From Neiella litorisoli (GTDB taxonomy: Bacteria; Pseudomonadota; Gammaproteobacteria; Enterobacterales; Neiellaceae): a stretch of 64,000 bases of DNA. The stretch covers positions 124,001-188,000 of the forward strand of contig NZ_JACXAF010000007.1 in the NCBI RefSeq assembly GCF_014773395.1, in the 5' to 3' direction. A model generated the notes under the pieces. The model made no database searches. It saw only the letters and a list, made by a program, of their open reading frames with translations, and was not told where the DNA came from. The translations under genes were made by a program, and so were the position numbers. This document shows, one piece after another, positions 721 through 27,040 of the stretch. Within the stretch, counting starts at the first letter, position 1. Each line of letters opens with the position of its first letter.

Positions 721-772
721 TTTCTTTTGTTTGACTCGGGGGTCAGCAAAAGAAACAACCATGAGGTGGAAA

Positions 773-4036: not shown

Positions 4037-4160
4037 CAGCAACCAGCAACTAGGAAATTATTCTGTCGGGGGGATGCCATTTGTCCCCTCCTTAATCCCA
4101 GGGGAAAGGGCGAGGAAAGCGGACAAGTCCCTCGGCAGAACATCAATGAGGCTTATTAAG

Positions 4161-7259: not shown

Positions 7260-7289
7260 GGGCAAGGACGAACAACTCACTTAACCGTT

Positions 7290-7313
7290 AAGGCCCCGTT
7301 TGGGGCCTTTTTT
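7290..7313 (+). terminator. Rho-independent terminator after the TonB receptor gene
   Basis: Stem AAGGCCCC (7290-7297) and GGGGCCTT (7302-7309), loop GTTT, followed by a T run. It ends only 21 bp before the start of the next GH26 gene. Confidence 0.92.
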
Positions 7314-7334
7314 GTCGCTTGTTAGGAGTAAAGG

Positions 7335-8537
7335 TTGAAAAAGCACGTTTTTATGAGCTCTATCTGGGCGGTTTTCGCTGCACTAACTTTCCTTGGCTGC
7401 AGTCCGCATTCATCGCTTAATGCTGCTCCACACTCGCTTATTGATCGTCAGGCTACGCCTCAGACGATCGCTTTGTTTGAGCACATGAGTCAGCTTGCCG
7501 AGCAACAGATCATGTTTGGTCACCAAGATGATTTAGCTTATGGCCTGCATTGGTGGAATGAACCAAATCGATCAGATGTTAAAGATGTAGTAGGCGATTA
7601 TCCGGCTGTTACCGGCTGGGAAATTGGCGGTTTAGAGCTCGGCCACCAAGTCAACATCGACGGTGTCAACTTTGCCAATATGCAAGCTTGGATCAAGCAG
7701 GTTTTTCTGCGCGGCGGTATCAATACCATTAGCTGGCATATCCATGATCCTGTGTCAGGCGCAAGTTCGTGGAGTAATCAGTCGCCAGTCGAACAGTTAC
7801 TACCGGGCGCTAGCCATCATCATCAATTACTCGCTTACCTCGATAGTTTTGTCGCCTTTAACCAGCAATTATTTGTGGTCAATGAGTTTGGTCAGCAAGT
7901 CCATATTCCTATTATTTTCCGCCCTTGGCATGAGCATAGTGGAGATTGGTTTTGGTGGGGCAAAGGCAATACCGCGGAGCAGGACTATATCGCGCTGTGG
8001 CGCTTTACCGTCCATTATCTGCGCGATGTGAAGCAACAACATAATTTGATCTATGCATACTCGCCGGATCGCAGCCGCCTGCGCGATAGCCATTTTACTG
8101 AAGATTATCTGTGGGGCTATCCTGGTGACGACTACGTCGACATTATGGGCATAGACAACTATTGGGATATGCGTGGTGAGATGGACCAACAGTTGGCACA
8201 GCAAAAGCTAGCCAGTTTTGTTTTTAGCACCGAGCAGCTGTCGAAGCTCGCGCATCAGCATGGCAAATTGGCGGCGCTAACCGAAGCGGGCTCTGGTCGA
8301 CTAGAGTATCCGCCGATGTGGACTGAGATATTGCTGACAGGCTTGCAAGCGAATACATGGACCAAACGAATGGCTTATGTGTTGGTGTGGCGTAATAGCA
8401 ATCTTGATAAGGAACAGCGAGAGCAATTCTTTACCCCGCCACCAGAACATCCATCGGCACCTTATTTTAAGCGCTTCTATCAAGATCCGATGACGCTGTT
8501 TAATGCTGATTTACCGCCAATGTACAGGGCTCCTTAG
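7335..8537 (+). CDS. GH26 mannanase or mannobiohydrolase lipoprotein
   Basis: A single-domain GH26 enzyme of 400 residues that cuts beta-mannan or manno-oligosaccharides, probably anchored in an envelope membrane. The TTG start at 7335 has AGGAG at 7324-7328 with a 6-nt gap; an internal ATG at 7353 is possible. The signal peptide ends in FLGC, a lipobox. Catalytic motifs are intact: acid/base Glu about 200 in WHEHSGDWFWWG and nucleophile Glu about 317 in LTEAGSG; YPGDDYVDIMGID is also typical of the family. It lacks the accessory modules of the first GH26 protein, which suggests a different role, such as release of mannobiose in the periplasm. It lies 21 bp after a strong terminator, so its own promoter is not obvious. 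Confidence 0.9.
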   Translation: MKKHVFMSSIWAVFAALTFLGCSPHSSLNAAPHSLIDRQATPQTIALFEHMSQLAEQQIMFGHQDDLAYGLHWWNEPNRSDVKDVVGDYPAVTGWEIGGLELGHQVNIDGVNFANMQAWIKQVFLRGGINTISWHIHDPVSGASSWSNQSPVEQLLPGASHHHQLLAYLDSFVAFNQQLFVVNEFGQQVHIPIIFRPWHEHSGDWFWWGKGNTAEQDYIALWRFTVHYLRDVKQQHNLIYAYSPDRSRLRDSHFTEDYLWGYPGDDYVDIMGIDNYWDMRGEMDQQLAQQKLASFVFSTEQLSKLAHQHGKLAALTEAGSGRLEYPPMWTEILLTGLQANTWTKRMAYVLVWRNSNLDKEQREQFFTPPPEHPSAPYFKRFYQDPMTLFNADLPPMYRAP

Positions 8538-10293: not shown

Positions 10294-12162
10294 CTAGTTT
10301 GGCAGCGGCAGATCGCTGGGTTGTGCTTGACTGTCTACTTTGACGAAGAAAAAGCGCCGTAAGCCATCGACTGACGCCCAATGCTTCATACTTTGGTTGC
10401 CAGTCACTTCAAAGCTAAATTGCTGTATGCCAGTGGTCAGTTCAAGCTCGCCAAGTAACTGCAACTCGGTTTCATCAAGTTGCTTATCGAGCCGTTGTGA
10501 ATCGAGCTTTAACTTCACTTGGATACCGGCGCTGGCAATGGCTTGGCGTTGCTTGAGGTAGATTCTGTAGCGACCTGCCTGATGCACTTCAATATCGTAC
10601 AAGGCACCATCGCCAGCATGTTGCAGCTGACTGAGGGTATGGGCTTTGCTGCGCGTATTGCCCCACGTCGCCGATGGTCCAAAAGCATTGACCACAGAAA
10701 CTTCCGCTTGTTCTAGGGCAATTTGGTAAACCGGTGGTTTATAGCTTTCGGGGCTGTCGATTATGGCTTGGTAGCCGGCCAGCAGATCCGCAGTTAGGCG
10801 CTTGGCAAGCTCCGGTTGTTGCAAGTAGATATTGGTTCGCTCTTTTGGGTCGGCTTTCATATCGACCAACACGTAGCCATTGTGTGGGCGAGGGTAACCT
10901 GCACGGTCCATCGGTGGGAATTGATGCAACTTGTATTGTTCGGTGCGCCATGCCACCCATTGCTCGCTTGGTTTAATTGCCCGCTTGGCAACGTCATCTA
11001 CCGGCGTCCATTGGTTAAACAATGACTTTTGGCAAATGACATCATGACTTGCAACCATCACTGGCGTTGGTCGCTCAATGGCTCTGGCCTGTTTTGGTTG
11101 TTGTAATGATGCAGCGAAACTGCCGCCATCGAGTGGCAGATTGGCCACTTGCCGTTCAGTACCCGTCAGTTCTAACAGGGTCGGCACGACATCCATGACG
11201 CTCGTTAAGTGATGAACCTTGCCCGCCGGAAATTGCCCTTTCCAGCGCACGAACAACGGTGACTTGATACCGTTTTGCCAAGCTTGGCCTTTGTTACCGT
11301 TGAGCTGACTCGGATTTCGTTGTTGCCATTCTTGTTGCGTCATGGCGCCCAAGTTACTCGAATCAAACCAAGGGCCATTATCTGATAAGAACAGCACAAT
11401 GGTGTTGTCTGCCAAGCCGGCTTCATCGAGGTGATGCATCAGGCGACCAATATGGTGGTCCATTTCGCTGATCATGCCATACAGTTGCGCAACCGGTTCG
11501 CGCAGGCCTTTTTGGCGGTACGGCTCGACAAACTCATCGGGAGCCAACCACGGTTCGTGCGGCGCAAGAAAACTCAAATAGGCAAAAAACGGCTGCTCTT
11601 TATGGTCGTCGATAAAGTCGATGGCGTATTGGGTGATCACGTCGGACACCCAAGCGTCATGCTTTACTGCTTTGCCATTGAGTAACCCCGAACTGTTTTG
11701 GTGGACATATAGCTCGGCGTAATAGCCTTGGTCAAAGCCGCGATCCCAAGGGAAGTAGCCCGCCGTTTTGCCAACGTGCCACTTACCCCAAGTGCCAGTG
11801 GCGTAGCCATTGTCTTTGAGTAGCTGTGAAATCAGTACTTCATCGAGCTTCATAAAATCACGACCACCGTGAACGCCGGACACGCCAGTTTTGTAATGAT
11901 GACGACCCGTCAATAGCGCAGCGCGAGTGGTGGAGCAGACCGGTGTTACCTGAAAGTCGGAAAACTGAACGGACTGGGTGGCCAGCTGATCGAGGTGTGG
12001 CGTGGTGATCACCGGATTGCCATGTATGGCAAGGTCATCAAACCCCATGTCGTCAGCGGTGATTAAAATAATATTAGGTTGTTTCGCAGCCTGAGTAGGC
12101 GAAACAGCCGCCACAAAGGCGGCTGCGAATACCCAGGTAAATGTCACGAGAAACTTCATCAT
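10294..12162 (-). CDS. Secreted sulfatase (family S1-like), possibly acting on sulfated mannan
   Basis: A 622-residue secreted sulfatase. The signal peptide ends near SPTQAA. The alkaline-phosphatase-like fold starts with NIILITADDMGFDD, which gives the metal-binding Asp pair. The formylglycine site is VCSTTRAALLTG with Cys at about residue 76: Thr replaces the Pro or Ala usual at the third position of CxPxR. Other S1 landmarks are GKWHVG, FLAPHEPW and FLSDNGPW. Residues about 480-622 form an extra beta-rich domain. A start at the second Met (12159) gives a better gap to GGAG. It is 19 bp after the GH5 gene in the same operon, which suggests removal of sulfate from a mannan. The enzyme needs a formylglycine-generating enzyme, not seen in this window. 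Confidence 0.88.
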   Translation of the reverse strand: MMKFLVTFTWVFAAAFVAAVSPTQAAKQPNIILITADDMGFDDLAIHGNPVITTPHLDQLATQSVQFSDFQVTPVCSTTRAALLTGRHHYKTGVSGVHGGRDFMKLDEVLISQLLKDNGYATGTWGKWHVGKTAGYFPWDRGFDQGYYAELYVHQNSSGLLNGKAVKHDAWVSDVITQYAIDFIDDHKEQPFFAYLSFLAPHEPWLAPDEFVEPYRQKGLREPVAQLYGMISEMDHHIGRLMHHLDEAGLADNTIVLFLSDNGPWFDSSNLGAMTQQEWQQRNPSQLNGNKGQAWQNGIKSPLFVRWKGQFPAGKVHHLTSVMDVVPTLLELTGTERQVANLPLDGGSFAASLQQPKQARAIERPTPVMVASHDVICQKSLFNQWTPVDDVAKRAIKPSEQWVAWRTEQYKLHQFPPMDRAGYPRPHNGYVLVDMKADPKERTNIYLQQPELAKRLTADLLAGYQAIIDSPESYKPPVYQIALEQAEVSVVNAFGPSATWGNTRSKAHTLSQLQHAGDGALYDIEVHQAGRYRIYLKQRQAIASAGIQVKLKLDSQRLDKQLDETELQLLGELELTTGIQQFSFEVTGNQSMKHWASVDGLRRFFFVKVDSQAQPSDLPLPN

Positions 12163-12181
12163 TTACTCCGGTGCTGCAAGG

Positions 12182-13504
12182 TTAACGCTGTTGCATGTCA
12201 TCATTAAATTGTTTGATGAGCGCTAAGGTACTGGTATCGGTTGAGAACACTGAGTTCAGCCCTTGAGGCTCTTGCGGTGGATCGCCAGAGAAGTCATCGC
12301 CTGCTTGCCATTTGCCTGTGGTCATATCTTTGGCTGGTTTGGCTTCACCACCAAACCCCCAGATGTTGACCCCAGCAAAGGTGCGATCGTCGGTGGCGAG
12401 CAGTTCGCCAAACACGCCTTTGAAGAATATATTGCGATAGGTGACGTCAGCATCGCGTTCGAGCTTTTCTTGATTGCGTGGGAAGCCAAACTCAGACAGA
12501 ACAACCGGCCGTTGTTGTTGCTTCGCGACCGCTAAGTGGCGGGCGATATAATCTTTGGCATTGTCAATGGCGATTTGCGTCGACGCTTGTTCGTTGTTGG
12601 GATCGTACCAAGACCAGTTTTTCGGCCACACATGGATAGTCAGATAATCGATATCGGGATTGGCGTGAACCTTTTTCCATTGTTCAATGTCGCGGTAAGT
12701 GCCCGCTTCGCCTTCGGCACCGGTCGAAATCAGCTGATTAGGGGCTAAATCATTAATCTGGCTGACAGTACGATTAAGCCAAGCAATGAATGCTGGCGCA
12801 TGTTCGGCATTGCGAACCCGAGGCTCATTGGCAACTTGCCACGACATAATGGTTGGATCGTCGGTGTATTTGACGCCAGTCACACTGTTGGTGCGGCCAA
12901 TAATGAAATCAACGTGGTTAGCAAATGCATCCATGCATGGCTCGCAGGAATGGAACTGCATGGTGTAATCCTGAAACTTGTCCCAGTCATAGGGGGGTAA
13001 GAACGGGCTAGGAATGTCGCCATAACCATTCCATTCCAAATACTGAGCGAAACCACCGGACCAAATCCAATTGTTGGTTAGATACAGCACCGCGACCATA
13101 TCGCGCTTGGCCATTTCTGCCAGCAGGAAATCCAACCCTTCAAGTAATGCTTGATCATATTTTCCCTGTTCATATTGCAAGGCTGGATTGACCATGGAAT
13201 CGGTTTTTCCGCCATCACCGCCGGCGAGAATGCGCAAGTTGGTGATGCCATATTGCTGCATCAAATCGAGTTCGCGGATCATCCGCGCTTTGCCTTCCTC
13301 ACTGGTACCAAGCAGCGGACCGTACCAGTAGTTAAAGCCAACAAATTGGTAGGGCTTGCCATTGCGAACGAACTCGCCTTGGGCAACGCTGACAAAGGAA
13401 TCATTGGTCGCCGCGCTTGCGGTGTCTGGCGTGGTCAGTTGGCTTTGGCAGCCTAACTGCGACAAAAGCGCCGCCGTAGCGACAAATTTCAACAGGTGTT
13501 TCAT
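12182..13504 (-). CDS. GH5 (subfamily 7-like) beta-mannanase lipoprotein
   Basis: A 440-residue endo-beta-1,4-mannanase of the GH5 family. The signal peptide ends in SQLGC, a lipobox, so it is membrane-anchored. The acid/base Glu is in SWQVANEPR (about residue 228) and the nucleophile Glu in VLSEFGFP (about 337); FVGFNYWYGPLLG and TNLRILAGGDGG near the N-terminus fit GH5_7 mannanases. The start at 13504 is preceded by AGGA with an 8-nt gap. It lies 10 bp after the mannose isomerase gene and 19 bp before the sulfatase, so these are one operon under the tandem operators at 14766-14799. Confidence 0.9.
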   Translation of the reverse strand: MKHLLKFVATAALLSQLGCQSQLTTPDTASAATNDSFVSVAQGEFVRNGKPYQFVGFNYWYGPLLGTSEEGKARMIRELDLMQQYGITNLRILAGGDGGKTDSMVNPALQYEQGKYDQALLEGLDFLLAEMAKRDMVAVLYLTNNWIWSGGFAQYLEWNGYGDIPSPFLPPYDWDKFQDYTMQFHSCEPCMDAFANHVDFIIGRTNSVTGVKYTDDPTIMSWQVANEPRVRNAEHAPAFIAWLNRTVSQINDLAPNQLISTGAEGEAGTYRDIEQWKKVHANPDIDYLTIHVWPKNWSWYDPNNEQASTQIAIDNAKDYIARHLAVAKQQQRPVVLSEFGFPRNQEKLERDADVTYRNIFFKGVFGELLATDDRTFAGVNIWGFGGEAKPAKDMTTGKWQAGDDFSGDPPQEPQGLNSVFSTDTSTLALIKQFNDDMQQR

Positions 13505-13514
13505 CCCAAAATCC

Positions 13515-14693
13515 TTAATTCGGTGAGGACTGACGGAGACCGGAGCGGTCGAGATAGCGCACTGATTTGGCGAGGGCGACTATCAGGTGATACAGGGTGC
13601 TAGCGGGTGCCACATCTGAGCAGATCGCGTTGTTGCCATCGAGCTGATCGACATACGCACCGCGAGTGGCAGGCTCGATGTAATATTGGAACAGCAGTTC
13701 GATGGCATCGGCGGCCTTTTGTTCGTAGATGTCCGGCTGCCACTTTGCCAATACCAGGCTGGCTTTGATCAGCTCTGTCATTGGCCAACTGCGTTTGGTG
13801 GCGTGGATAATTTCACCTTGTGGGGTGGTGGCGTCATAGATTAAGCCACTGCTCGATTCCTTGCCGATCAACAAGCCATTTTGATAGAGCCGTTGGCAGA
13901 AATGTTGCACCTTGACGCCGGTCAGGCTGCTGTACCAGTCCAGTAACCAAACCCATTCGAACATATGGCCGGGTTCAATCACGGTTTGGCCATCGACTAA
14001 AGCTGGCTGCCAGTTGTGGTCAAAGAATTCCAATAAAACACCGTCTTTATGATCAAAGAACACCTTGCGGAACAAGGTAAAAATCTCGCCAGCTTTGGCT
14101 AGCCAACGGCCATCGCCGCTCGCTTCGTAGAGTGTCATAAAGGCTTCAAACAAATGCATGTGAGGGTTTTGTCGGCGCACCGGCGCGTCATAATCGCCCT
14201 CATGCCAGCCGCCGTTATCGGCGGCAAAGTGCTCATCGATGTGGGCCAGCAGGCGCTCGGCGTGGCGGATGTCGATGGTCTGCCGGTAGAGCCGATAGCG
14301 GGCACCTGCGGCGAGCAAGTGAAACGCGATATCGTACAAATCTTGTTTGCTATCCGCGGTCTGATTGCTGGCATCGACTAAATGCGCGTAACTGTGTTGA
14401 TGCTCAGGATGGTGGCCATGAAGCCGAGTAAAGCGCCAGATGTCGCTGACCAAACGGCGATTGCTGCCGGTCCAGCCAAATTCTTCGGCAATACAGAAGC
14501 TGAACATTTGCCGAGCCTGAACTCGGATTCGTTTGGCAACCGCTTTGTCTGGCTCTCCGCTAAAGGTCAGGCGTTCGTAGACCGCATTAGTATTGGGTTC
14601 GATTGCGGTAGAGGTCCAAAGTGGCAAGGCTTGATCCACCATCCAATGCTGGAATCGATCCACCTGTTGCGCAAGCGTGGCTATTTGCTGCAT
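13515..14693 (-). CDS. AGE-family sugar isomerase, likely D-mannose isomerase
   Basis: A 392-residue alpha/alpha-barrel protein of the N-acylglucosamine 2-epimerase superfamily, cytoplasmic with no signal peptide. Motifs RQNPHMHLFEAFMTLYEA, EPGHMFEWVWLLDW and RSWPMTELIKA fit the mannose isomerase / YihS side of the family rather than the cellobiose 2-epimerase side. It would convert mannose to fructose. It is the first gene of the minus-strand operon with the GH5 mannanase and sulfatase. The second AGE protein at 18998-20254 is of a different subtype. An epimerase role on an oligosaccharide cannot be excluded. Confidence 0.8.
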   Translation of the reverse strand: MQQIATLAQQVDRFQHWMVDQALPLWTSTAIEPNTNAVYERLTFSGEPDKAVAKRIRVQARQMFSFCIAEEFGWTGSNRRLVSDIWRFTRLHGHHPEHQHSYAHLVDASNQTADSKQDLYDIAFHLLAAGARYRLYRQTIDIRHAERLLAHIDEHFAADNGGWHEGDYDAPVRRQNPHMHLFEAFMTLYEASGDGRWLAKAGEIFTLFRKVFFDHKDGVLLEFFDHNWQPALVDGQTVIEPGHMFEWVWLLDWYSSLTGVKVQHFCQRLYQNGLLIGKESSSGLIYDATTPQGEIIHATKRSWPMTELIKASLVLAKWQPDIYEQKAADAIELLFQYYIEPATRGAYVDQLDGNNAICSDVAPASTLYHLIVALAKSVRYLDRSGLRQSSPN

Positions 14694-14765: not shown

Positions 14766-14799
14766 TGTAACCGTTTACGAAATATTGTAAACGGTTACA
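14766..14799. promoter_or_regulatory. Tandem LacI-type operators (type 2) before the isomerase-GH5-sulfatase operon
   Basis: Two 14-bp sites, TGTAACCGTTTACG at 14766-14779 and TGTAAACGGTTACA at 14786-14799. Their centres are 20 bp apart, close to two helical turns, so two dimers could bind the same DNA face. They lie 73-106 bp upstream of the isomerase start on the minus strand. The regulator 2 gene ends just beyond them at 14905. Confidence 0.82.
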
Positions 14800-14904: not shown

Positions 14905-15906
14905 TTAGCCAGTAAAGGGCACTGAGCTTGAACGAACAACAAACTCATACGGCAAGATATAGTCTGATTGGCGTAGCTCTTTGCCTTCGATGAGGCGTAA
15001 AAGCATATTCGCTGCTGCTTTGCCGATTTCTTCAGCGGGCTGGGCGATGGTCGTCAGGGCTGGCTCGGCATAGCGCGATACTTCAATGTCATCGAAGCCG
15101 ATAATCGACATGTCCTCCGGTACTTTAATACCGGCTGCGCGGAAGCCTTTAATGGCACCAATGGCCATTTCATCGTTCATTGACAGAATGGCGGTAGGTC
15201 GTTCTTCTGGCGCCAGTCGAATAAAGTGCTGAGCTGCGTTGAGCCCGGACCACATGGTAAATTCGCCTTCGGCAACCCATTCGTCGCAGCACTCGATGCC
15301 AGCGTCAGTAAGGGATTGGCGGTAGCCTTTAAGGCGGTCAATGGTGTGGGGGTTTTCAGATAAACCAGTGATCACGCCAATTCGTTTATGACCCAGTGAC
15401 AGCAGGTAATCGGTTGCTGTTTTTGCCGCGCCAGCATTGTCAATGCGAACGCAAGGGTAAGGAGTGTCTTCACAGCCGGCGGCATTGACCGCAATGATGT
15501 CGTCTTTTGGCAGTATTGAATCGCCCTCCCAATAAGGGCGCAATTGAATCACGCCGTCGGCCTGGCGGGTTTCAACCAGTTTCAGGTATTCTTCTTCGCG
15601 CTTGCGCTGATCGCGTGTATCACCAAGTAGCACGCCAAACCCGTGCTGCTGCATGACATCCTCAATGCCGCGCACGACAGTGGCAAAGAAGGTGTTGGCC
15701 ATATTCGGCACCAGCACGACAATAGTAAAAGCGCGGTGACGGCGAAAATTTCGAGCCAGCATATTGGGTTTGTATTGCACTTGCTCGATGGCATCGTGCA
15801 CTTTTTTTAAGCTTTTCTTTGAAACCGTTTCCGGAGCACTAAGAGCTCTCGACACAGTTGCAATAGAAACGCCTGCAACCTTTGCTACATCACGAATGTT
15901 CGACAT
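14905..15906 (-). CDS. LacI-family transcriptional regulator 2
   Basis: A 333-residue LacI/GalR regulator, paralogous to the one at 8595-9593 across its whole length. The helix-turn-helix reads NIRDVAKVAGVSIATVSRAL (residues 3-22), followed by the hinge VQYKPNMLARNFRR. The effector domain has SLGHKRIGVITG and DMSIIGFDDIEVS. It is flanked by type 2 operators: tandem sites at 14766-14799 beyond its 3' end and sites at 15965-15980 and 16032-16045 upstream. It probably controls the isomerase operon, the symporter, the phosphorylase operon, the binding protein and phosphomannomutase, and itself. The effector is likely a manno-oligosaccharide, by inference. Confidence 0.92.
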   Translation of the reverse strand: MSNIRDVAKVAGVSIATVSRALSAPETVSKKSLKKVHDAIEQVQYKPNMLARNFRRHRAFTIVVLVPNMANTFFATVVRGIEDVMQQHGFGVLLGDTRDQRKREEEYLKLVETRQADGVIQLRPYWEGDSILPKDDIIAVNAAGCEDTPYPCVRIDNAGAAKTATDYLLSLGHKRIGVITGLSENPHTIDRLKGYRQSLTDAGIECCDEWVAEGEFTMWSGLNAAQHFIRLAPEERPTAILSMNDEMAIGAIKGFRAAGIKVPEDMSIIGFDDIEVSRYAEPALTTIAQPAEEIGKAAANMLLRLIEGKELRQSDYILPYEFVVRSSSVPFTG

Positions 15907-16301: not shown

Positions 16302-17705
16302 ATGACTTCAGCAGAAAACCAGTTAAGAGTGAAAGAAAAAATAGGTTATGGCTTTGGTGACTTTGCCTCATCAATGTTCTGGAAGATGTTTTCGGTCTAT
16401 CTACTGATCTTCTACACCGATGTGTTTGGCATCTCGGCGGCGGCGGTGGGCACCATGTTCCTGCTGACCAGAATTTGGGACACCGCTAATGACCCCGTGA
16501 TGGGGGTGATTGCCGACCGAACCAATACCCGTTGGGGCAAGTTTCGGCCTTTCCTGCTGTGGGGCGCAATACCGTTTGCGGTAATTGGGGTGCTGACTTT
16601 TACTACTCCTGATTGGTCGCCAACGGCGAAGTTAGCTTATGCCTATGTCACCTATACCCTAATGATGATGGCGTACACGGCGGTTAACGTACCTTACGCC
16701 TCTTTACTTGGGGTGATGTCATCGAGCAGTTCAGATCGCACCTCGTTAGCATCATTCCGCATGGTGTTTGCCTTTGCCGGCAGTATCTTTGCGTTTGTCT
16801 TGGTCGATCCGTTAACCAACTTTTTCACCAATATGTCAGCCACGCCAGATCCACAGCTGGGTTGGATGATGACCATGATGGTCTATGGCTGTATCGCGGC
16901 GTTCTTGTTCTACATGACGTTCTCTTGGACGCGTGAGCGCATAGCACCGCCGGTTGCACAAAAGAGCAACTTGAAAGAGGACTTGAAAAACCTCGCCACC
17001 AATAAGCCATGGTTTATTTTGCTCGGCGCCGCTTTATCGACGCTGATCTTCAACAGCATGCGCGATGGCGCGGCCGTGTTCTATTTTAAGTATTTTGTCC
17101 AAGCTGATGATCTTGCCATCATGGGCATGACTTTCGGTATGACCACTGCCTATCTGGTACTGGGTCAGGCCGCCAACATTATTGGTGTGGTGCTAGCGCA
17201 ACCAATTTCCAAGCTCATTGGCAAGCGCAATACCTTTATGGTGGCAATGTTCCTGGCGGCTGGATTAAGCGTGTTTTTCTTCTTTTTAAGCCAAGACCAA
17301 ATCATGTTGATGTTGGTGTTGCAAGTGCTGATCAGTGCCTGTGCCGGTATCGTTTTCCCATTGCTGTGGTCGATGTATGCCGATATTGCCGATTATTCTG
17401 AGTATGAAACGGGCCGCCGCTCGACTGGCCTGATCTTCTCGTCATCGTCTTTCTCGCAAAAAATGGGATGGACCTTGGGCGGCGCGCTAACAGGCTGGAC
17501 ATTGGCGTTCTTCGGTTATGAAGCCAATGCGGAACAAACTGAATTCGCCAAAGAAGGGCTGCGCTATATGGTGAGCTTTTTGCCTGCCATCGGTGCGGCG
17601 TTGTCAGGTTTGTTTATGATCTTCTACAAACTCACCGACCATTACATGTTGAAAGTCAGCGAAGAGCTCGATGCTCGCCGCGTCAGTGAGCAATCACCAA
17701 ACTAA
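16302..17705 (+). CDS. GPH-family (MelB-like) sugar:cation symporter, probably for mannobiose or mannosides
   Basis: A 467-residue inner-membrane transporter with about 12 hydrophobic segments, of the glycoside-pentoside-hexuronide:cation family. Family landmarks are KIGYGFGDFASSMFW at the N-terminus, the early FYTDVFGI, NDPVMGVIADRT (the cation-binding region) and RWGKFRPFLLWGAIPF. It lies 108 bp before the GH130 gene on the same strand; an operator lies in that gap. The likely cargo is a short manno-oligosaccharide, from context. Ribosome site is weak. Confidence 0.88.
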   Translation: MTSAENQLRVKEKIGYGFGDFASSMFWKMFSVYLLIFYTDVFGISAAAVGTMFLLTRIWDTANDPVMGVIADRTNTRWGKFRPFLLWGAIPFAVIGVLTFTTPDWSPTAKLAYAYVTYTLMMMAYTAVNVPYASLLGVMSSSSSDRTSLASFRMVFAFAGSIFAFVLVDPLTNFFTNMSATPDPQLGWMMTMMVYGCIAAFLFYMTFSWTRERIAPPVAQKSNLKEDLKNLATNKPWFILLGAALSTLIFNSMRDGAAVFYFKYFVQADDLAIMGMTFGMTTAYLVLGQAANIIGVVLAQPISKLIGKRNTFMVAMFLAAGLSVFFFFLSQDQIMLMLVLQVLISACAGIVFPLLWSMYADIADYSEYETGRRSTGLIFSSSSFSQKMGWTLGGALTGWTLAFFGYEANAEQTEFAKEGLRYMVSFLPAIGAALSGLFMIFYKLTDHYMLKVSEELDARRVSEQSPN

Positions 17706-17756: not shown

Positions 17757-17791
17757 TGTAAACGGTTACGATTTGGTTGTAACCAATAGCA
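17757..17791. promoter_or_regulatory. LacI-type operator(s) (type 2) before the GH130 operon
   Basis: TGTAAACGGTTACG at 17757-17770 matches 13 of 14 positions of the best type 2 site. A second half-site TGTAACC begins at 17778, 21 bp downstream, echoing the tandem layout at 14766-14799. The pair lies 23-57 bp before the GH130 start. Confidence 0.8.
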
Positions 17792-17813: not shown

Positions 17814-18995
17814 ATGAGTGATTACAAAGCGTTAGTGAACGAACTGTTTGCCCAGCAAGAAGAGTTGCTGAGCCGAGCCAATGCGCCGCAGGCAAAAAAC
17901 AATGGCATTTACCAGCGTTGGCAAAATCCGATTGTGACCCGCGCCCATGTGCCAGTGACTTGGCGTTACGACTTAAACCCTGAAACCAATCCATTTTTAA
18001 TGGAGCGTCAGGGAATTAACGCCACTTTAAATGCTGGAGCCATTTACAAAGACGGCAAATACCTATTGGTGGTTCGGGTCGAAGGGAATGACCGCAAGTC
18101 GTTCTTCGCCGTAGCTGAAAGCCCGAACGGCGTGGATAACTTTAAGTTCTGGTCGCATCCAGTGACCATGCCAGAAACCGATCGCCCCGACACTAACGTG
18201 TACGACATGCGCTTAACCGCTCATGAAGACGGTTACATTTACGGCTTGTTCTGTACCGAACGCAAAGATGAAACTCAACCCCATGACTTGTCTGCTGCAG
18301 AGGCTCAGTGCGGTATCGCGCGTACGAAAGACCTAGTGACTTGGGAGCGCTTGCCTGATCTGATTACTTACTCAGGTCAGCAGCGCAACGTGGTGTTGCA
18401 TCCTGAATTTGTAGATGGCAAGTACGCACTGTATACCCGCCCGCAAGACGGCTTTATTTCGGTTGGCAGTGGCGGCGGTATTGGCTGGGGCCTAGCTGAC
18501 AGCATGGAACATGCTGAAATCAAAGAAGAGTTGATTGTCGATGGCAAGGTCTACCACACCATCAAAGAAATCAAAAACGGCCAAGGGCCAGCGCCAATCA
18601 AAACCAGTGAGGGCTGGTTGCACTTAGCTCATGGAGTGCGTAACACCGCCGCTGGTTTGCGCTATGTGCTGTATATGTTCATGACCGATTTAGATCAGCC
18701 TTGGAAAGTAACGCACATGCCTGCCGGTCATTTCATCGCTCCAGAAGGTGCGGAACGGGTTGGCGACGTGTCGAACGTGACCTTTGCCAATGGTTGGGTC
18801 GTTAACGAAAACAATGAAGTGTTTATCTACTACGCATCATCAGACACTCGGATGCATGTTGCGACTTCAACCGTTGATCAGTTGATCGACTATTGCAAAA
18901 ACACGCCGGAAGATGGGCTTCGTTCAGCTACGTCGGTGATTGAGCGCAATAAGCTGATCGATGCCAACTTGGCATTTCTGAAAAGCGGAGCCTGA
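17814..18995 (+). CDS. GH130 phosphorylase, likely 4-O-beta-D-mannosyl-D-glucose phosphorylase
   Basis: A 393-residue cytoplasmic enzyme. Over its length it resembles GH130 subfamily 1: [18 protein letters not shown] near residues 30-47, then DTNVYDMRL, the catalytic-region Asp in this stretch, [12 protein letters not shown] and [19 protein letters not shown]. Such enzymes split mannosyl-glucose with phosphate into mannose-1-phosphate and glucose. The next gene, a mannobiose/cellobiose 2-epimerase, starts 2 bp after its stop, and a phosphomannomutase lies at 22946-24328, which supports the subfamily 1 role. A mannobiose phosphorylase (subfamily 2) is the alternative but fits the epimerase partner less well. 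Confidence 0.9.
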
Positions 18996-18997
18996 TC

Positions 18998-20254
18998 ATG
19001 AGCGAGGTTCTAGCGCCGCAGCTGATCGACTGGCAACAAGCCGCTCGCCGAGAAGCGGAAAGTATTGCCGATTGGTGGGCGACCTACACAGTTGATGAGC
19101 ACCATGGTGGCTTTTATGGCGAAGTTGGCCGGAATAATACGCCGGTCATTGAGTCGGAAAAAAGCATCATTCAGAACACCCGCATTCTTTGGTTTTTCTC
19201 TGAGTATGCACATTTCTTGAAAACGAAGAGCTTGAAAGGGAGAGGCAGCAAATCAGAGCGCTACGAGGCGCTAGCAACCCGCGCTTTTGACTATCTGCTG
19301 CGCTACTTTGATGACAAAGAACAGGGCGGCGTGGTGTGGCAGCTCGACCACCAAGGCCAGGTGACCGATGGCAAAAAGCAAACCTATGCCATTAGTTTTG
19401 CCATTTATGGACTGTCGGCTTACTACAAGTTGACCAACAACCCGCAAGCTTTAGCCAAAGCGCAAGAATACTTTGGCTTGCTGGAAAAGCATGCGCGCGA
19501 CCATGAGCGCAATGGTTATGTCGAAGCGCTGAGCCAAGACTGGCAGGCGCTGGCCGATGTTCGTCTGAGTGATAAAGACGACAACTTGCCGAAGACCATG
19601 AACACCCATTTGCATGTGCTTGAGGCTTACACCAGTTTGCATTTGGTGGCACCGACGGCGCAAACCGCCGAAGCGTTAGCAAACCTAATCGATCTGTTTA
19701 ATGACCGCATCATTGACCATGACAGCGGCCACTTACGGCTGTTTATGGAAATGGATTGGCAAGATAAGTCGACCTTGTGGTCCTACGGCCATGATATTGA
19801 ATGCAGTTGGTTGTTGTTTGAAGCTTTGGAAGCCTTGGGTGACGAAGAGCGGTTACAGCGATTAACGCCAGTGGTGTTGAAGTTAGCGGATACCACATTG
19901 GCCGAAGGTATTGGCGAGCGTGGTCAGGTGCTAGACCAGTTTGATTGCATCAAGCGCACTAACCATCCTGAGAGCCATTGGTGGGTGCAGGCTGAAGCAT
20001 TGGTTGGTTTCCTTAATGCTTATTACCTCAATGGTAACGAAGAGTTGCTCCCTCTGTACGAGAGCATTTGGCAGTTTATCTGTGACTTCCACAAGGATGT
20101 GGAGTTCGGCGAATGGCATTGGTTGGCAACAATCGATCAAGCCAATCATCCGGAAGTCTACAAAGCAGGAGGCTGGAAAGCGCCGTACCACAATGGTCGG
20201 GCGATGATGGAGATCTGCAAGTTAGTTGATCGCATCCAACACAAAAACAACTAA
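18998..20254 (+). CDS. AGE-family mannobiose (cellobiose) 2-epimerase
   Basis: A 418-residue cytoplasmic alpha/alpha-barrel epimerase. Motifs typical of cellobiose 2-epimerases are present: HHGGFYGEV, QNTRILWFFSEYA, KTMNTHLHVLEAYTSL, SYGHDIECSWLLFEA and ESHWWVQAEALVGF. It would turn mannobiose into mannosyl-glucose, the substrate of the GH130 protein. The start lies 2 bp after the GH130 stop, with GGAG at about 18987-18990, so the two genes are tightly coupled. The GH5 gene follows after 18 bp. The catalytic His residues in the HLH and WW regions appear intact. Confidence 0.9.
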   Translation: MSEVLAPQLIDWQQAARREAESIADWWATYTVDEHHGGFYGEVGRNNTPVIESEKSIIQNTRILWFFSEYAHFLKTKSLKGRGSKSERYEALATRAFDYLLRYFDDKEQGGVVWQLDHQGQVTDGKKQTYAISFAIYGLSAYYKLTNNPQALAKAQEYFGLLEKHARDHERNGYVEALSQDWQALADVRLSDKDDNLPKTMNTHLHVLEAYTSLHLVAPTAQTAEALANLIDLFNDRIIDHDSGHLRLFMEMDWQDKSTLWSYGHDIECSWLLFEALEALGDEERLQRLTPVVLKLADTTLAEGIGERGQVLDQFDCIKRTNHPESHWWVQAEALVGFLNAYYLNGNEELLPLYESIWQFICDFHKDVEFGEWHWLATIDQANHPEVYKAGGWKAPYHNGRAMMEICKLVDRIQHKNN

Positions 20255-20272: not shown

Positions 20273-21766
20273 ATGAAAAAATTGACCCTTGGCCGTGTTC
20301 GTAAAAAAGTCTTGGTTGCGGCATTGGCTGCGTCATTCGCTGCGCCAACCCTTGCTTTTGACCACTTTATTACCCGAGATGGTCATCAATTAAAAGATGG
20401 TGACCAAGTATTTCGATTTGCTGGGATCCATGCACCGGAACTGCACCGTATCGAAAATGATGCGCGTGGCGTGTGTCAAGCCGATCCGCGCGGTTGGGGC
20501 CAATATTTTCAATGGCCAACGGCTGATGAACAAGACAATTGGATTCAGTCGTTGGTATTAACGGGTCATAAGGCAATGCGGGTATACGTATTGTCAGTGG
20601 CTACACCATATGATGAAGCCTGTGAGCGCGAAACCCATATTTTACCGCCGACTAGCAAAGACGGTATGCCGCGCCTGAACGAAGTGGCCATGGTTCATTA
20701 CGACCGCATGATTGCGTTGTCAGACAAGCACGGCCTGCGGTTGATCTTGCCATTCATCGACCACTGGAAATGGTGGGGCGGACGCGAACAATTAGCGGCG
20801 TTTTATGGTGAAAGTGAAGACGACTTTTACGACACCAATAGTAAAACCTACGCAGCCTATAAGCACATCATCAGTCAAGTAATTAACCGCACCAACACCA
20901 TTACCGGTCGCAAGTACAATCAAGAAAAAGCCATCATGGCGTGGGAAACCGGTAATGAATTAAAGGGTTCCACGGAAGCTTTTGTTCGACAAACCGCAGC
21001 CCACATTAAACAGCTGGCACCGAATCAATTGGTGATGGATGGCACTTACCTGAAAATTAACGAATTTTCGAAAACCGATCCGAACGTTGACATCATTTCT
21101 AACCATTTCTACACGGTTAATAAGAACAATAACCCTGATGAAGTACGCAAGAATTTACGCGCCATTGATGGCAAAAAAGTGTACTTCGTCGGCGAGTTTG
21201 GTTTGGAATCAGCTGACTTCCTCAACTCGGTGATGCAAGCGGCAGTGCATGAAGAATACAAAGGCGCGAAAGCGGCCGGTGCTTTTATCTGGGGTTTCCG
21301 CGGGCGTCGTCATGACGGCGGGTTTTATTGGCATCGCGAATACACCGGTCACTATAGCTATCATTTACCAGGCTTCCCAGAAGGCTTCCGCAATGAAGAG
21401 CAAGCGGTTGTTGATGTAGTTCGCACCGCCATTGCACAGATGAACGGTGAAGATACAGTGAAGCCATTACCTGCTCCGCAAGCGCCGACGTTACGAGCAA
21501 TTGACACGCCGGATAACCTGAAATGGCTGGGGGCGCCAGTTGGCCGCTGGTATCGCTTTGAGCGTGCGACTAGTCAATCGGGCCCGTGGCAGGTAATTGG
21601 TGATGGTATCTCAGATGGCCGCAACGGCTTTGATCCTGCCAGCCATGTGTTGTTCGCCGATCCCATGCCGCGTGCCGCTGGTGAAACCTACTATTACCGA
21701 GTGACAGCCTTTAATGAATCGGGTCAATCGGTACCATCGAATGTGCAGTCGTACCAACAACCCTAG
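20273..21766 (+). CDS. Secreted GH5-family mannanase with C-terminal FnIII-like domain
   Basis: A 497-residue exported protein. The signal peptide (KKVLVAALAASFAAPTLAF) lacks a lipobox. The acid/base Glu is in AWETGNELKG (about residue 229) and the nucleophile Glu in FVGEFGLES (about 308). FRFAGIHAPEL and HKAMRVYVLSVA fit a GH5 mannanase fold; the GNE motif in place of NEP differs from the GH5 protein at 12182-13504, so the subfamily is probably different. Residues about 400-497 look like a fibronectin type III domain. Its C-terminus is nearly the same as the truncated gene at 1-78. It is the last gene of the GH130-epimerase operon and ends at a strong terminator. Confidence 0.85.
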   Translation: MKKLTLGRVRKKVLVAALAASFAAPTLAFDHFITRDGHQLKDGDQVFRFAGIHAPELHRIENDARGVCQADPRGWGQYFQWPTADEQDNWIQSLVLTGHKAMRVYVLSVATPYDEACERETHILPPTSKDGMPRLNEVAMVHYDRMIALSDKHGLRLILPFIDHWKWWGGREQLAAFYGESEDDFYDTNSKTYAAYKHIISQVINRTNTITGRKYNQEKAIMAWETGNELKGSTEAFVRQTAAHIKQLAPNQLVMDGTYLKINEFSKTDPNVDIISNHFYTVNKNNNPDEVRKNLRAIDGKKVYFVGEFGLESADFLNSVMQAAVHEEYKGAKAAGAFIWGFRGRRHDGGFYWHREYTGHYSYHLPGFPEGFRNEEQAVVDVVRTAIAQMNGEDTVKPLPAPQAPTLRAIDTPDNLKWLGAPVGRWYRFERATSQSGPWQVIGDGISDGRNGFDPASHVLFADPMPRAAGETYYYRVTAFNESGQSVPSNVQSYQQP

Positions 21767-21900: not shown

Positions 21901-22752
21901 TTACATCACTTTGGCTAGGTCGAGCCAGAGTTCTTTACGATCCAGCGGTGTTGCTGGCGATAAATTGGGGTTGTTGATTTCAATGACGCGGCGATTGGCC
22001 AACTGTGCTTGCTGCAATGCCGACTTGATATGTGGCGCTTGATAAAACACCTGATCAAAGCTGCCGTCGGCGATGGCTAAATTCAGACCTTGTTCAATGG
22101 CTTGGGCTAATTCTTCGTTGTCTCGACTAACAAAGAAATACATCGGCATGGGATAGATCAGCAGTAACTCTTTATCAACGCTCAACTCTAAATCTGGACG
22201 TGCGCGGATTTCGTCCCAAGGTTCATGAACGGCCAGTGGAAAATAATCAAAACGGCCTCCATCAACCATGTAAAACAAGCTTTCTTTCTTCACTGCGGTT
22301 ACTACGTTTAAACCGGCGTCGCGCAAAATCTGGGTATCACCCCACGATCGGCCTTGTCCGGCATTTAACGTCTTTAAGTCAGCAAGAGAATGAATTCGAT
22401 GGAAATTTGCTTGGTTGTGTTTGTTGATAATAAATAATCGATGACCCTGAAGGCCTTTTAACAACGGCACTCGAATGGGCCGTAAATTTTGTTCGTAGGT
22501 TGGTTGCGTCCCCGCCCACAGGATTGACACACTGCCAAACTTTATCCCTTCAACTAGTTGATCTTGATTGAGTGTTTCGCTGGTTTGCTGCAGCTCAAAG
22601 GACTTGGTTTTACCAACTTTGCTTAGTGCCAGTTCAATCAACTCGATGAAATACTGGTCTTTACTGTTCTGTAGTTTGTTGTGTACCAATGGTGTGGCGT
22701 GAGCTGAAAGGGTGGTCAACGCGGTCAGCAGTATTAAGGTCAATAACTTCAT
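21901..22752 (-). CDS. Orphan periplasmic substrate-binding protein (type 2 fold) in the mannan regulon
   Basis: A 283-residue exported protein: signal peptide LTLILLTALTTLSAHA, then a transporter substrate-binding domain with LVEGIKFGSVSILWAGTQP, SLADLKTLNAGQGRSWGDT and YPMPMYFFVS. Such domains bind small ligands in the periplasm, often polar amino acids or opines. No permease or ATPase gene is near, so it may serve a sensor or a distant transporter. A perfect type 2 operator lies 10 bp upstream of its start, between promoter and ribosome site (AGGA), so it belongs to the mannan regulon. The ligand is not known; the gene may also be a poorly characterised accessory protein. Confidence 0.75.
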   Translation of the reverse strand: MKLLTLILLTALTTLSAHATPLVHNKLQNSKDQYFIELIELALSKVGKTKSFELQQTSETLNQDQLVEGIKFGSVSILWAGTQPTYEQNLRPIRVPLLKGLQGHRLFIINKHNQANFHRIHSLADLKTLNAGQGRSWGDTQILRDAGLNVVTAVKKESLFYMVDGGRFDYFPLAVHEPWDEIRARPDLELSVDKELLLIYPMPMYFFVSRDNEELAQAIEQGLNLAIADGSFDQVFYQAPHIKSALQQAQLANRRVIEINNPNLSPATPLDRKELWLDLAKVM

Positions 22753-22761
22753 GATTAATCC

Positions 22762-22775
22762 TGTAAACGGTTACA
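22762..22775. promoter_or_regulatory. LacI-type operator (type 2) at the binding-protein start
   Basis: A perfect TGTAAACGGTTACA, as at 14786-14799. It ends 10 bp from the start codon of the minus-strand binding-protein gene, a position where a repressor would block transcript elongation. Confidence 0.82.
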
Positions 22776-22828: not shown

Positions 22829-22842
22829 TGTAAACGGTTCCA
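22829..22842. promoter_or_regulatory. LacI-type operator (type 2) before the phosphomannomutase gene
   Basis: TGTAAACGGTTCCA, one mismatch from the perfect type 2 site. It is 67 bp from the site at 22762-22775 and about 104 bp upstream of the phosphomannomutase start, in the divergent promoter region. Confidence 0.75.
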
Positions 22843-22945: not shown

Positions 22946-24328
22946 ATGACCGAGCTAACTTGCTTTAAGGCCTACGATATTCGTGGCCAGTTAGGCGCTG
23001 AACTGAATCAACACATTGCCTACGATATCGGCCGTGCTTATGGTGAGGTATTGCAACCCAAGCAGGTCGTTGTGGGGGGCGATGCCCGCGCAACGAGTGA
23101 ATCGTTAAAGCTCGCTTTGGCGCAAGGTCTAAGAGATGCCGGTACTGCTGTGATTGACTTGGGGTTAACCGGTACTGAAGAAATTTATTTTGCCACCTTT
23201 CATCTTGGGGTTGATGGCGGCGTAGAAGTCACCGCTAGCCATAACCCAATCGATTACAACGGTATGAAGCTGGTCTGCAAGGGCAGTCGACCAATCGGCA
23301 ATGACAATGGTTTGCTTGAGATTAAGGCATTGGCAGAGCAGGCGCCATGGCGCCAAACAACCACTGAATCAGCAAGCCAAAGTGTCGGCGGCTATCAACA
23401 GCAGAGCTTGCTCAAGGATTACGTCAATCACTTGCTCGGCTACATCGACCCGTCTTTAATGAAGCCACTCAAGCTAGTGGTGAATGCAGGCAATGGTGCT
23501 GCTGGCCACGTTGTTGATGCGTTGGAGCAAGCCTTTGCGGAACTCAACATCCCTGTGTCGCTAATCAAGATTCATAATGAGCCTGATAGCACATTCCCCA
23601 ATGGTATTCCTAATCCGCTACTACCAGAGAATCGGCCTGCAACGGCAAATGCCGTAAAAGCGCATGGCGCTGACATGGGGATTGCTTGGGATGGCGACTT
23701 TGACCGCTGTTTTTTGTTTGATGAAAACGGTGAATTTATTGAAGGCTACTACATTGTCGGATTACTTGCCGAAGCCTTTTTACAACGCCAGCCCGGCGCC
23801 AAAATTATCCATGACCCGCGCTTAACCTGGAATACCATTGATGTGGTGAAACATGCTGGCGGTCAACCGATTTTAAGTAAAACTGGCCATGCATTTATTA
23901 AACAGATCATGCGTGAACAAGATGCCGTGTATGGCGGCGAAATGAGTGCTCATCATTACTTCCGCGATTTTGCCTATTGCGACAGTGGCATGATCCCGTG
24001 GCTTCTTGTTGCCCAATTGCTGAGCGTCAAAAACATGCCGTTGTCGGCGTTGGTGAAAGAGCGAATTGCTGCCTACCCATCTTCGGGAGAAATTAACCAA
24101 CAGCTAAGCAATCCGCAGGCCGCTATAGCCAATGTGCTAGACAAGCTAAAGGGGGAAGCGCTTAGTATTGATCATACCGATGGAATTAGCGTCGAATTTA
24201 GCAACTGGCGCTTTAACTTGCGCCAGTCTAATACGGAGCCAGTTGTGCGGTTGAATGTTGAAAGTCGTGGCGATGTGCAACTCATGAAGCAAAAAACACA
24301 GCTCGTGCTGGCGCTACTCATGAGTTAG
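22946..24328 (+). CDS. manB: Phosphomannomutase / phosphoglucomutase
   Basis: A 460-residue alpha-D-phosphohexomutase that interconverts mannose-1-phosphate and mannose-6-phosphate. It has the four expected landmarks: [11 protein letters not shown] near the start, the phosphoserine loop VTASHNP (Ser about 98), the metal-binding DGDFDRC and the C-terminal phosphate-binding [19 protein letters not shown] site lies 11 nt before the start. Two type 2 operators lie upstream in the divergent region with the binding-protein gene. Its place here fits a catabolic role for mannose-1-phosphate from the GH130 enzyme; the same protein could also serve GDP-mannose synthesis. Confidence 0.9.
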
Positions 24329-25297: not shown

Positions 25298-27040
25298 GTG
25301 ACTGGCAGACACTGCATTCAATACGGGTTCTTGTTGTTGCTAGCTATGCTGCTCAGCATGCCCTCGTCGGCCGATGATGAAGCCTTTCATATTCTAGTGC
25401 TGCATTCCTATTCAACCGATTTTCAGTGGACCAACGAAATCCACCAAGGCATCACTGAGACGATTACCACGCAGTCGCCACAAAGCCGTATTCGGGTTGA
25501 GTTTATGGATACTAAAAATATCTTTCATCCCGACTATTTAGCGCACCTTGCCGAGCTTTACACCTACAAATATGCCGATCACAAACCCGATGCCATCATC
25601 CTATCGGATAACAATGCCATGGCGTTTTATAACCGCTATGGTGCAACCCTGTTTCCACAGGCCAAAGTGGTTGCGGGTGGCATTAATGGCGCCTTACCAC
25701 CGCCTTTGCAATCACCGGTTCACAGTGTCATTGCTGAGTTAGTCGATCACAAACAGACACTTAGTTTTGCCTTGCAGCTGCGGCCCCAAGCGCAGCGAAT
25801 TTATGTGATTGCCGACAGCTCGACCACGGGGATCGCCATACGGCAAGAAGTAGAACAAATCGCTGAGCAGTTTGATGATTCGGTTGAGTTTGTTTACCTC
25901 AACGGCCTCACGCTGGCGCAGCTCCGAGCCGAGACCAGCAGATTTTCCCGTCACGATATTGTTTATCTGCTGCCTTATTTTCGCGCTGCTGATGGCTCCT
26001 CCTATCATCAAAACGAGGTTGGGATGGCCATTGCTGAGTCGTCAAAGACGCCGGTGTTTGTCTCTTGGGCGTTCCAAATGGCGCCGGGGGTGGTTGGTGG
26101 ACGGGTGATGTCGGCACAGAACATCGGCCATCAAGCGGCCACGAGCGTGTTGCGGTTGTTGCGTGCTGAGTTTGTGGAGAGCTTTCAGACCAACCTAGCT
26201 CTCGATGAGAGCTTGTTCGATTATCAAGCCCTGCGCCGCCATCACATTCCGTTTAGTGATTTGCCGAGTGGAGCGCGAATTGTTAACCGACCTCAGAATT
26301 TCTGGGATGAGCACAAGAAAGTGATGATCCCTGGGCTGTTGGTGATTGCCGTTTTGCTATTGATTTTGGTGTTGTTATTGCTCAATTTGAAAAAACAACG
26401 AGCCCTCAACACCAATAACCGACAGCTAATGGAGCTGGATCGCGAGGTGATTGATACGCAGCGCGAACTACTGACGATTCTTGGCGAAGTGATTGAGGTT
26501 CGCTCCCATGAGACCCGCAATCATGTGACGCGGGTTGCCAAGGTGTCTTATTTTCTTGGCACCAAACTGGGACTGTCAGAAGAGACTCTTAAAATGCTTG
26601 AAGCGGCCTCGCCGATGCACGACGTGGGTAAGATTGGTATCCCGGAAAACATTCTCAACAAGCCCGGCCAGCTGACCGATGATGAGTATCAGATTATGCG
26701 AACCCATGCCCAAATCGGTCACAACATCTTGCATAACTCCGATCGTGAATTGCTGCAAATGGCCTGTGTTATCGCCCATCAACACCACGAATACTGGGAT
26801 GGCTCAGGTTATCCGCAAGGCTTGAAAGGGGAACAGATCCACCTGTTTGCGCGAATCACCACACTTGCCGATATCTACGATGCCATTTCTTCGGACCGCT
26901 GCTACAAAGACGCATGGCCCGAGGAGGATGTGCTTCATTACATTCTTGAGCAGCGCGGCAAGATTTTTGATCCCAAACTGGTCGATATTTTCATGGCCAA
27001 TATCGACGACATTCGCTCCTTGCGTAACCAGTACGTTTAA
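25298..27040 (+). CDS. HD-GYP cyclic-di-GMP phosphodiesterase with periplasmic binding-protein sensor
   Basis: A 580-residue inner-membrane signalling protein with a GTG start preceded by AAGGG. After a signal segment, residues about 28-330 form a periplasmic ABC_sub_bind-like domain ([19 protein letters not shown] near its start). One membrane span ([20 protein letters not shown]) follows at about 345-368, then a short coil and an HD-GYP domain. The metal motif HDVGKIGIP (His 441, Asp 442) and [11 protein letters not shown] (His 496-497, GYP about 504-506) are intact, so it should be active. The ligand of the sensor is unknown. Its stop overlaps the mutS stop on the other strand. Confidence 0.9.

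Follow-up and report, generated by a model that had tools for sequence, protein, structure and literature searches.

The lone binding protein (SBP) of the mannan locus of Neiella litorisoli is probably a detector, not part of a transporter, and its partner elsewhere in the genome is most likely a single chemoreceptor (MCP). We propose, with a probability of roughly 0.7, that this SBP serves chemotaxis as an inducible co-receptor independent of any transporter, signalling mannan products by docking on a hub MCP, the chemotaxis part of the reading being likelier than the exact ligand. An initial annotation of the window (the whole stretch of DNA analysed here, 64,000 nucleotides) had singled out the gene as an orphan; the more important result is that it belongs to a set of 12 close paralogues, most of which lie in sugar loci.

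The genes and sites of the mannan locus are collected in Table 1. The genome that contains the window (G000) measures 4.32 Mb in 46 contigs, and it was compared throughout with those of N. holothuriorum (G001), N. marina (G002) and a sister genus (G004). At the SBP gene the plus-strand frame is crowded with stops and the coding strand is the minus one. The gene had been placed at 21901-22775; it is real, with its strand now set to minus and its ORF spanning 21901-22752, and the remainder of that span takes in an operator. The GPH symporter is the likely uptake route for the sugar of the locus. A GH26 gene with a CBM35 domain, a TonB-dependent receptor gene and a second GH26 gene, all on the plus strand, show that the mannan region stretches well upstream of the locus first described. 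Two further plus-strand genes are listed, one encoding a 639-aa protein that carries DUF4382 and the other an HD-domain protein whose sequence suggests a sensor in the periplasm or membrane with HD-GYP output.

Table 1. Features of the mannan region in the window, with strand and basis of assignment.
Feature	Position	Strand	Basis or location
Operator-like site, 2 mismatches	265-278	.	Near GH26/TonB region
GH26 (with CBM35), TonB-dependent receptor and second GH26 genes	731..8537	+	Pfam
Sulfatase, GH5 (Cellulase family) and GlcNAc_2-epim genes	10294..14693	-	Pfam
Two operators, 1 mismatch (14766) and exact (14786-14799)	14766..14799	.	Upstream of epimerase/GH5/sulfatase genes
LacI-family regulator	14905..15906	-	Pfam LacI and Peripla_BP_3
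GPH sugar:cation symporter	16302..17705	+	Pfam MFS_2, TIGR00792
Operator, 1 mismatch	17757..17770	.	Upstream of GH130
GH130 (mannoside phosphorylase family)	17814..18995	+	Pfam
Epimerase, GlcNAc 2-epimerase fold	18998..20254	+	Resembles cellobiose 2-epimerase EpiA closely; score under the EpiA cut-off
Putative secreted hydrolase (possibly a mannanase)	20273..21766	+	No Pfam family at 1e-3; weak Glyco_hydro_42, E 0.0075
Orphan type II binding protein (SBP), 283 aa, P0001	21901..22752	-	ORF call; AlphaFold and PDB fold comparison; family search
Probable Sec signal peptide of the SBP, residues 1-19, AHA end	22696..22752	-	Translation by eye; N-terminal helix in AlphaFold model
LacI-type operator TGTAAACGGTTACA	22762..22775	.	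14-mer upstream of SBP ATG
Second operator, 1 mismatch	22829..22842	.	Gap between SBP and phosphomannomutase genes
Phosphomannomutase, divergent from SBP gene	22946..24328	+	Pfam, NCBIfam
HD-domain protein	25346..27040	+	HD_5 at residues 381-545; first ~330 residues match no Pfam family
DUF4382 protein	52866..54785	+	DUF4382

The operator lies 9 nt from the ATG of the SBP gene and is identical to the exact site upstream of the epimerase/GH5/sulfatase genes, which agrees with the earlier placing of the SBP gene within the mannan regulon, the operator being common to it and to the mannan genes. It had been described as a perfect operator 10 bp from the start, which is true of it as a copy of the site at 14786-14799; as an inverted repeat it contains one mismatched pair, and the spacing is the 9 nt given above. 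Matches with up to three mismatches number 21 in the window, several sites being counted on both strands, against a mean of 4.4 in shuffled sequences, none of the 100 shuffles reaching 21. Both operators on the SBP side are kept in the N. marina orthologue (one exact, one with 1 mismatch) and, each with 1 mismatch, in that of the sister genus; just upstream of the Catenovulum mannan SBP genes, a search allowing 2 mismatches found no operator. The local LacI-family protein is likely to be the owner of these operators. The idea that each SBP paralogue has a palindromic operator in common with its own locus found no support in a simple search of ten SBP genes, which gave one at the mannan locus alone; a shared operator was not found at the nine other own-genome SBP genes tested, and the palindrome upstream of one of them (L015) recurs within its own upstream gap only.

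The structure prediction called for by the initial annotation gave an AlphaFold model with a pLDDT of 95.5 and a type II binding-protein fold, and comparison with PDB structures returned type II SBPs, the nearest of them amino-acid binders; the fold proposed at the outset is thereby borne out. Against amino-acid SBPs such as 6mkx and 4zv1 the model scored VIA Z 16.8 with an rmsd of 3.8 over 212 aligned residues and a Foldseek E of 1.3e-11. The type II fold is thus what the protein has in common with LAO (6mkx) and AncQR (4zv1); it differs from them in that identity is 14-15% and that ABC genes were not seen around it. Searches of Pfam and NCBIfam at 1e-3 gave no family match, the sole trace of kinship being an SBP_bac_3 score of 12.9 bits, under the Pfam gathering cut-off of 26.4, and PDB sequence searches gave weak matches only (best E 0.63 with the single sequence, 0.0055 with a profile). 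A Pfam scan of nine neighbouring genes found neither an ABC permease or ATPase, in agreement with what had first been noted for this gene, nor TRAP or TTT membrane subunits. The EAA permease motif, searched with a regular expression, was absent from the ORFs called in the ten own-genome loci where the 12 close paralogues lie; an unlinked partner encoded at a distance may exist.

Nineteen members of the SBP family are encoded in G000. The SBP tree holds 127 of 133 distinct members, those omitted (scores below 115) being the distant own-genome paralogues L019-L024, and in it the 12 close paralogues and the 40 MCP-adjacent rows, without exception, fall to the same side of a branch whose support is 100. 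The close paralogues lie mostly in separate sugar loci. Their neighbours are xylA, xylB, XylR and a LacI-type regulator (L010); LacY, a GH43-type protein, lacZ and gal genes (L011); an SSF symporter, GntR and SDR genes (L012); PTS genes (L013); GH16, a GPH symporter and a LacI-type regulator, next to two tandem SBP copies (L014); an alginate lyase, a heparinase-like lyase, SSF and UxaC (L015); and GH28, a UxaC-family protein, GH43 and TonB receptors (L016). The gene names xylA, xylB, gal, lacZ, kdgA, kdgK and PTS are presumptive, some having been taken from the first residues of seed proteins. Three close copies, L009 and the tandem pair L017, are without an evident sugar locus. The associations recur in N. 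marina (mannan with phosphomannomutase, galactose, xylose, PTS, GH16) and in the sister genus (mannan, galactose, xylose-regulator, alginate). Tandem SBP pairs beside GH16/GPH/LacI-type genes occur in three Neiella genomes (L014 8748-10798, L084 8538-10667, L089 8581-10619) and, from their arrangement, may be two co-receptors for one glycan locus. Lone SBP copies adjoin three unrelated transporter classes, MFS-type (GPH, LacY), SSF and PTS, which argues that the SBPs are not subunits of one transporter type and fits a sensor rather than a part of a transporter.

The mannan SBPs form a clade of six sequences with a support of 98, comprising those of the window, N. marina, the sister genus and three Catenovulum. 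A phosphomannomutase gene adjoins the SBP gene in all six genomes, and GH5, GH26 or GH130 genes lie inside the fetched locus in five of them; in N. marina the GH130 gene is on a different contig from the mannan SBP. The Catenovulum loci contain GH5 with CBM10 (L093, L095), GH26 (L094) and GH27 (L095), and there the SBP gene comes after the phosphomannomutase gene on the same strand. Conservation of the SBP near mannan genes in other genomes had been set as a check, with the lack of any conserved mannan link as the outcome that would tell against the first interpretation; given the two counts above, a conserved link is what was found. It supports in outline the early suggestion that the protein senses a mannan product or works with a partner elsewhere.

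Additional information comes from N. holothuriorum, which keeps the symporter, GH130 (92% identical), epimerase and hydrolase genes, the mannan SBP being reduced to a 50-residue C-terminal remnant with 76% identity (L206 7665-7874); no phosphomannomutase gene was found in the 19 kb fetched around this locus. The retention of uptake and catabolic genes next to a remnant of the SBP gene suggests that the SBP is accessory and not part of uptake. A role as an ABC or TRAP subunit was rejected on three grounds, namely the lack of a partner among the scanned neighbours, the unrelated transporter classes beside the paralogues, and this loss of the SBP with the uptake genes kept. It is also very improbable that the SBP is a transport helper which captures the sugar and passes it to a secondary transporter. 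TRAP, TTT and a TAXI-GltS system reportedly show that SBPs can serve secondary transporters, and the mannan locus has its GPH symporter; against this, lone copies stand beside GPH, LacY, SSF and PTS genes alike, N. holothuriorum retains the symporter and catabolic genes with only a remnant of the SBP, and a transport function leaves unexplained the pairing with MCPs.

This pairing is seen in 39 of the 80 named SBP loci, where an MCP is the next downstream gene on the same strand. An SBP ORF was called in 79 of these loci, 38 of which are paired, with a gap of -4 to +62 nt; the 80th, L109 from Paludibacterium, is also MCP-paired. Pfam analysis of ten downstream proteins, selected from 43 candidates, found HAMP and MCPsignal domains in nine, the tenth (L102) being an FAD oxidoreductase. 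The paired MCPs are about 495 aa long and possess a PAS-like periplasmic domain. A sensor model, with a pLDDT of 92, consists of a long helix, a short helix, four strands and a helix, which is a PAS-like fold as modelled. Among solved single domains it best matches the periplasmic domain of a LapD orthologue (4u64, E 1.7e-4), WalK sensors following closely. The highest-ranking structural match of all is an integrative WalK-YycH model (E 3.2e-6). The periplasmic domain of LapD binds a protein partner, as the MCP sensor would; the two differ in that LapD is not an MCP and its partner is a protease. It is scarcely probable that the SBP is a co-induced protein with another periplasmic role, such as an enzyme, a chaperone or an oligosaccharide sink; biochemical data for the family were not found, which leaves room for such a role, and both the fold and the MCP pairing point instead to ligand sensing.

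A profile of the MCP sensor, built from an alignment of the part between TM1 and TM2, was then compared with the SBP family across 295 genomes of the order, G000 included. The sensor is present in 31 of them (E<=1e-15), and the SBP family in at least 108 (E<=1e-30). All 31 sensor-containing genomes are also SBP-positive (Fisher p 1.3e-15, shared ancestry being ignored). At least 30 of the 35 sensor matches lie directly beside an SBP match, with 8-38 nt between the profile matches, and the other five, among the matches listed, are in G000, G001, G002, G004 and G445. SBP matches above 320 bits, a cut chosen after viewing the list, occur in 21 genomes among the matches listed, 20 of which have the MCP; the exception, G020, has a copy (L054) that belongs to a side clade and is itself part of the profile. 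A class-wide sample of 274 genomes, with the SBP in at least 4 and the MCP sensor in 1, is too sparse for use; one genome in it, G248, has an SBP of 318.6 bits and no MCP match at 1e-15.

Conversely, a strong MCP sensor is absent from 77 of the 108 SBP-positive genomes of the order sample (SBP counts being lower bounds), so the wider SBP family must do something else there. A sister group of the family, the side clade of 18 rows (L018, L054-L058, L060-L071), has no MCP neighbours; in it, L056 and L057 adjoin a gene reading like an aldose 1-epimerase. The side clade raises the question of whether the mannan-locus SBP might signal to another membrane receptor, a histidine kinase or a cyclic-di-GMP enzyme, instead of an MCP. 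SBP-driven kinases and cyclases are known (PMC9602780), and the HD-domain protein is encoded nearby. We give this explanation little credence, as MCPs accompany the close clade in many genera, and every genome of the order sample that has the sensor also has the SBP family. In addition, in the orthologous loci L073 and L092 none of the flanking genes, five to each side of the SBP, matches in length the 564 aa of the HD protein (in L073, proteins of 289 and 187 aa follow the phosphomannomutase).

Returning to an MCP as the partner, G000 encodes 24 MCPs, only one of which has a strong sensor match, the minus-strand frame C7:133-1608 (117.5 bits), the next scoring 23.4 bits. The latter is a weak match in a 223-aa frame (G000:C9:57797-58231), and similar weak frames occur in N. 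holothuriorum and N. marina. If lone SBPs work with one hub MCP, the genomes that carry them should possess such a receptor elsewhere. Twelve named genomes were chosen from the 80 named loci, nine in which the fetched SBP is unpaired (five Catenovulum, Gayadomonas, Teredinibacter, Cellvibrio and Planctobacterium) and three in which it is paired (Psychromonas, Agarivorans and Marinomonas). Exactly one strong sensor match was obtained in 12 of 12, at 108-199 bits, the next best being 39. SBPs at E<=1e-30, counts that may include side-clade members, number 19, 31, 10, 21, 23, 3, 15, 23 and 16 in the nine unpaired genomes in the order given, and 4, 3 and 1 in the three paired ones; at 300 bits or more the unpaired genomes have 2-9. 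The hub MCP has no SBP in its fetched flanks in eight of the nine unpaired genomes, and in Planctobacterium an SBP lies ~450 nt upstream.

The phylogeny of the receptors was compared with that of the binding proteins. In the SBP tree the sister of the mannan clade (support 95) consists of galactose/agar SBPs from the gal loci of Neiella and the sister genus and from Agarivorans and Vibrio loci. In the latter two the SBP and MCP genes are adjacent, and the Agarivorans locus has a LamB porin and agarase-type proteins; MCP-adjacent and lone copies are intermixed within this clade. The MCP tree has 60 rows, L203 being labelled as a hub despite an SBP match ~450 nt upstream, and its starred branches require no fewer than four switches between the hub and the paired state, which implies that the SBP-MCP pair was broken up repeatedly. 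The hub MCPs of Neiella have as their sister group (99) the paired ones from Agarivorans and the agar-locus Vibrio, in agreement with the position of the galactose/agar SBPs next to the mannan SBPs. The Catenovulum hub MCPs fall in the other main branch, though their mannan SBPs are sister to those of Neiella, so the two trees are not fully congruent.

We thus propose the following scheme. A mannan product would relieve the LacI-type repressor, and the SBP would be made and exported. In the periplasm it would close on a mannan breakdown product, which may be mannose, mannobiose or a short manno-oligosaccharide, and, once loaded, the protein would dock on the PAS-like periplasmic domain, about residues 30-132, of the one MCP encoded at G000:C7:133-1608. 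The docked MCP would signal to CheA, biasing swimming towards the source, with uptake proceeding separately from the SBP through the GPH symporter. The same MCP would be fed by about a dozen close paralogues, mostly from other sugar loci, in a hub-and-spoke arrangement in which a sugar regulon carries a plug-in sensor.

The ligand deserves separate consideration. It had been noted at the outset that such domains normally bind amino acids, and the fold comparison agrees with this; the genomic company of the family, however, consists of sugar genes. The SBP could be a co-receptor of the hub MCP for something other than a mannan product, either one ligand common to all copies or small non-sugars such as amino acids, the regulons setting only the timing. 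We regard this as unlikely, while recognizing that the nearest folds are amino-acid binders, that the loop motifs GQGxxWxDT and RFDYFP are common to SBPs of loci for different sugars, and that the three close copies L009 and L017 lack an evident sugar locus. On the other hand, 26 positions are fixed within and differ between nine SBP locus groups (of 2-4 members each), and 17 of them are in loops at strand ends (24-35, 78-86, 97-98, 138, 150, 179, 202), where they may line the ligand pocket; moreover, if a dozen copies all bound one ligand, their number would call for some other explanation. These patterns, which are indirect evidence, would fit a pocket that is half common and half specific.

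Regarding known systems, the SBPs of E. coli chemotaxis also serve ABC importers, and Tar-type receptors have a four-helix-bundle sensor. The SBPs described here are without a visible ABC partner, are of type II, lie in sugar regulons and reach 31 members per genome, and their MCP has a PAS-like sensor. What the two would have in common is that a ligand-loaded periplasmic protein stimulates an MCP and that one MCP can serve several SBPs, as among MBP-Tar, RBP/GBP-Trg and LsrB-Tsr; SBP-driven chemoreceptors as such are established (PMC9602780). Co-receptor chemotaxis as such is already known from MBP-Tar, and it is the transporter-free, many-to-one, regulon-embedded form that looks new.

A regulon-borne case is mcpNag of Shewanella, an MCP inside the GlcNAc/chitin (NagR) regulon. 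In the open-licence PMC literature it appears in two papers only: the Shewanella sugar encyclopedia of 2010, which includes mcpNag, sensing and chemotaxis components being typically omitted (PMC2996990), and the 2011 regulon paper, in which NagR binds upstream of mcpNag, SO3510 (PMC3223726). The excerpted text of neither names a binding protein (PMC2996990, PMC3223726). Our loci L163-L170 hold an SBP-MCP pair in an apparent mcpNag-type locus (L163 with GH20, a BadF-type kinase and an SIS protein), and SO3510 may be the MCP of such a pair. SPH1118 of Sphingomonas sp. A1 resembles the SBP in being, as reported, a binding protein for a polysaccharide, pectin, and differs from a merely catabolic one in being needed for chemotaxis and differs from the SBP in being also needed for assimilation (PMC7055323, PMC9314435). 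A 2026 paper describes the chemotaxis transducer of a Vibrio alginate locus as having no apparent connection with the use of alginate (PMC13390454). Across the open-licence PMC literature, subscription papers lying outside it, we recognized no description of this SBP family or of one MCP with many dispersed SBPs.

Taken together, our results suggest an arrangement that goes beyond the mannan locus. From the comparison of genomes there is a somewhat better than even chance that, in motile polysaccharide-degrading gammaproteobacteria, one MCP with a PAS-like protein-docking domain serves many transporter-free SBPs, a sugar regulon carrying its own inducible SBP, so that the catabolic operons switched on at a given time would set the range of attractants, and the gain of an SBP gene by itself, through duplication or acquisition, could widen this range. 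If true, this would provide a function for a large family without a Pfam model, with up to 31 members per genome at E<=1e-30, and would account for the ability that polysaccharide degraders could have to follow many glycans by means of a single receptor. The system would also be a plug-in biosensor provided by nature, whose docking surface can be tested. Chemotaxis would be coupled to catabolic induction, mannan being smelled when the cell is equipped to eat it.
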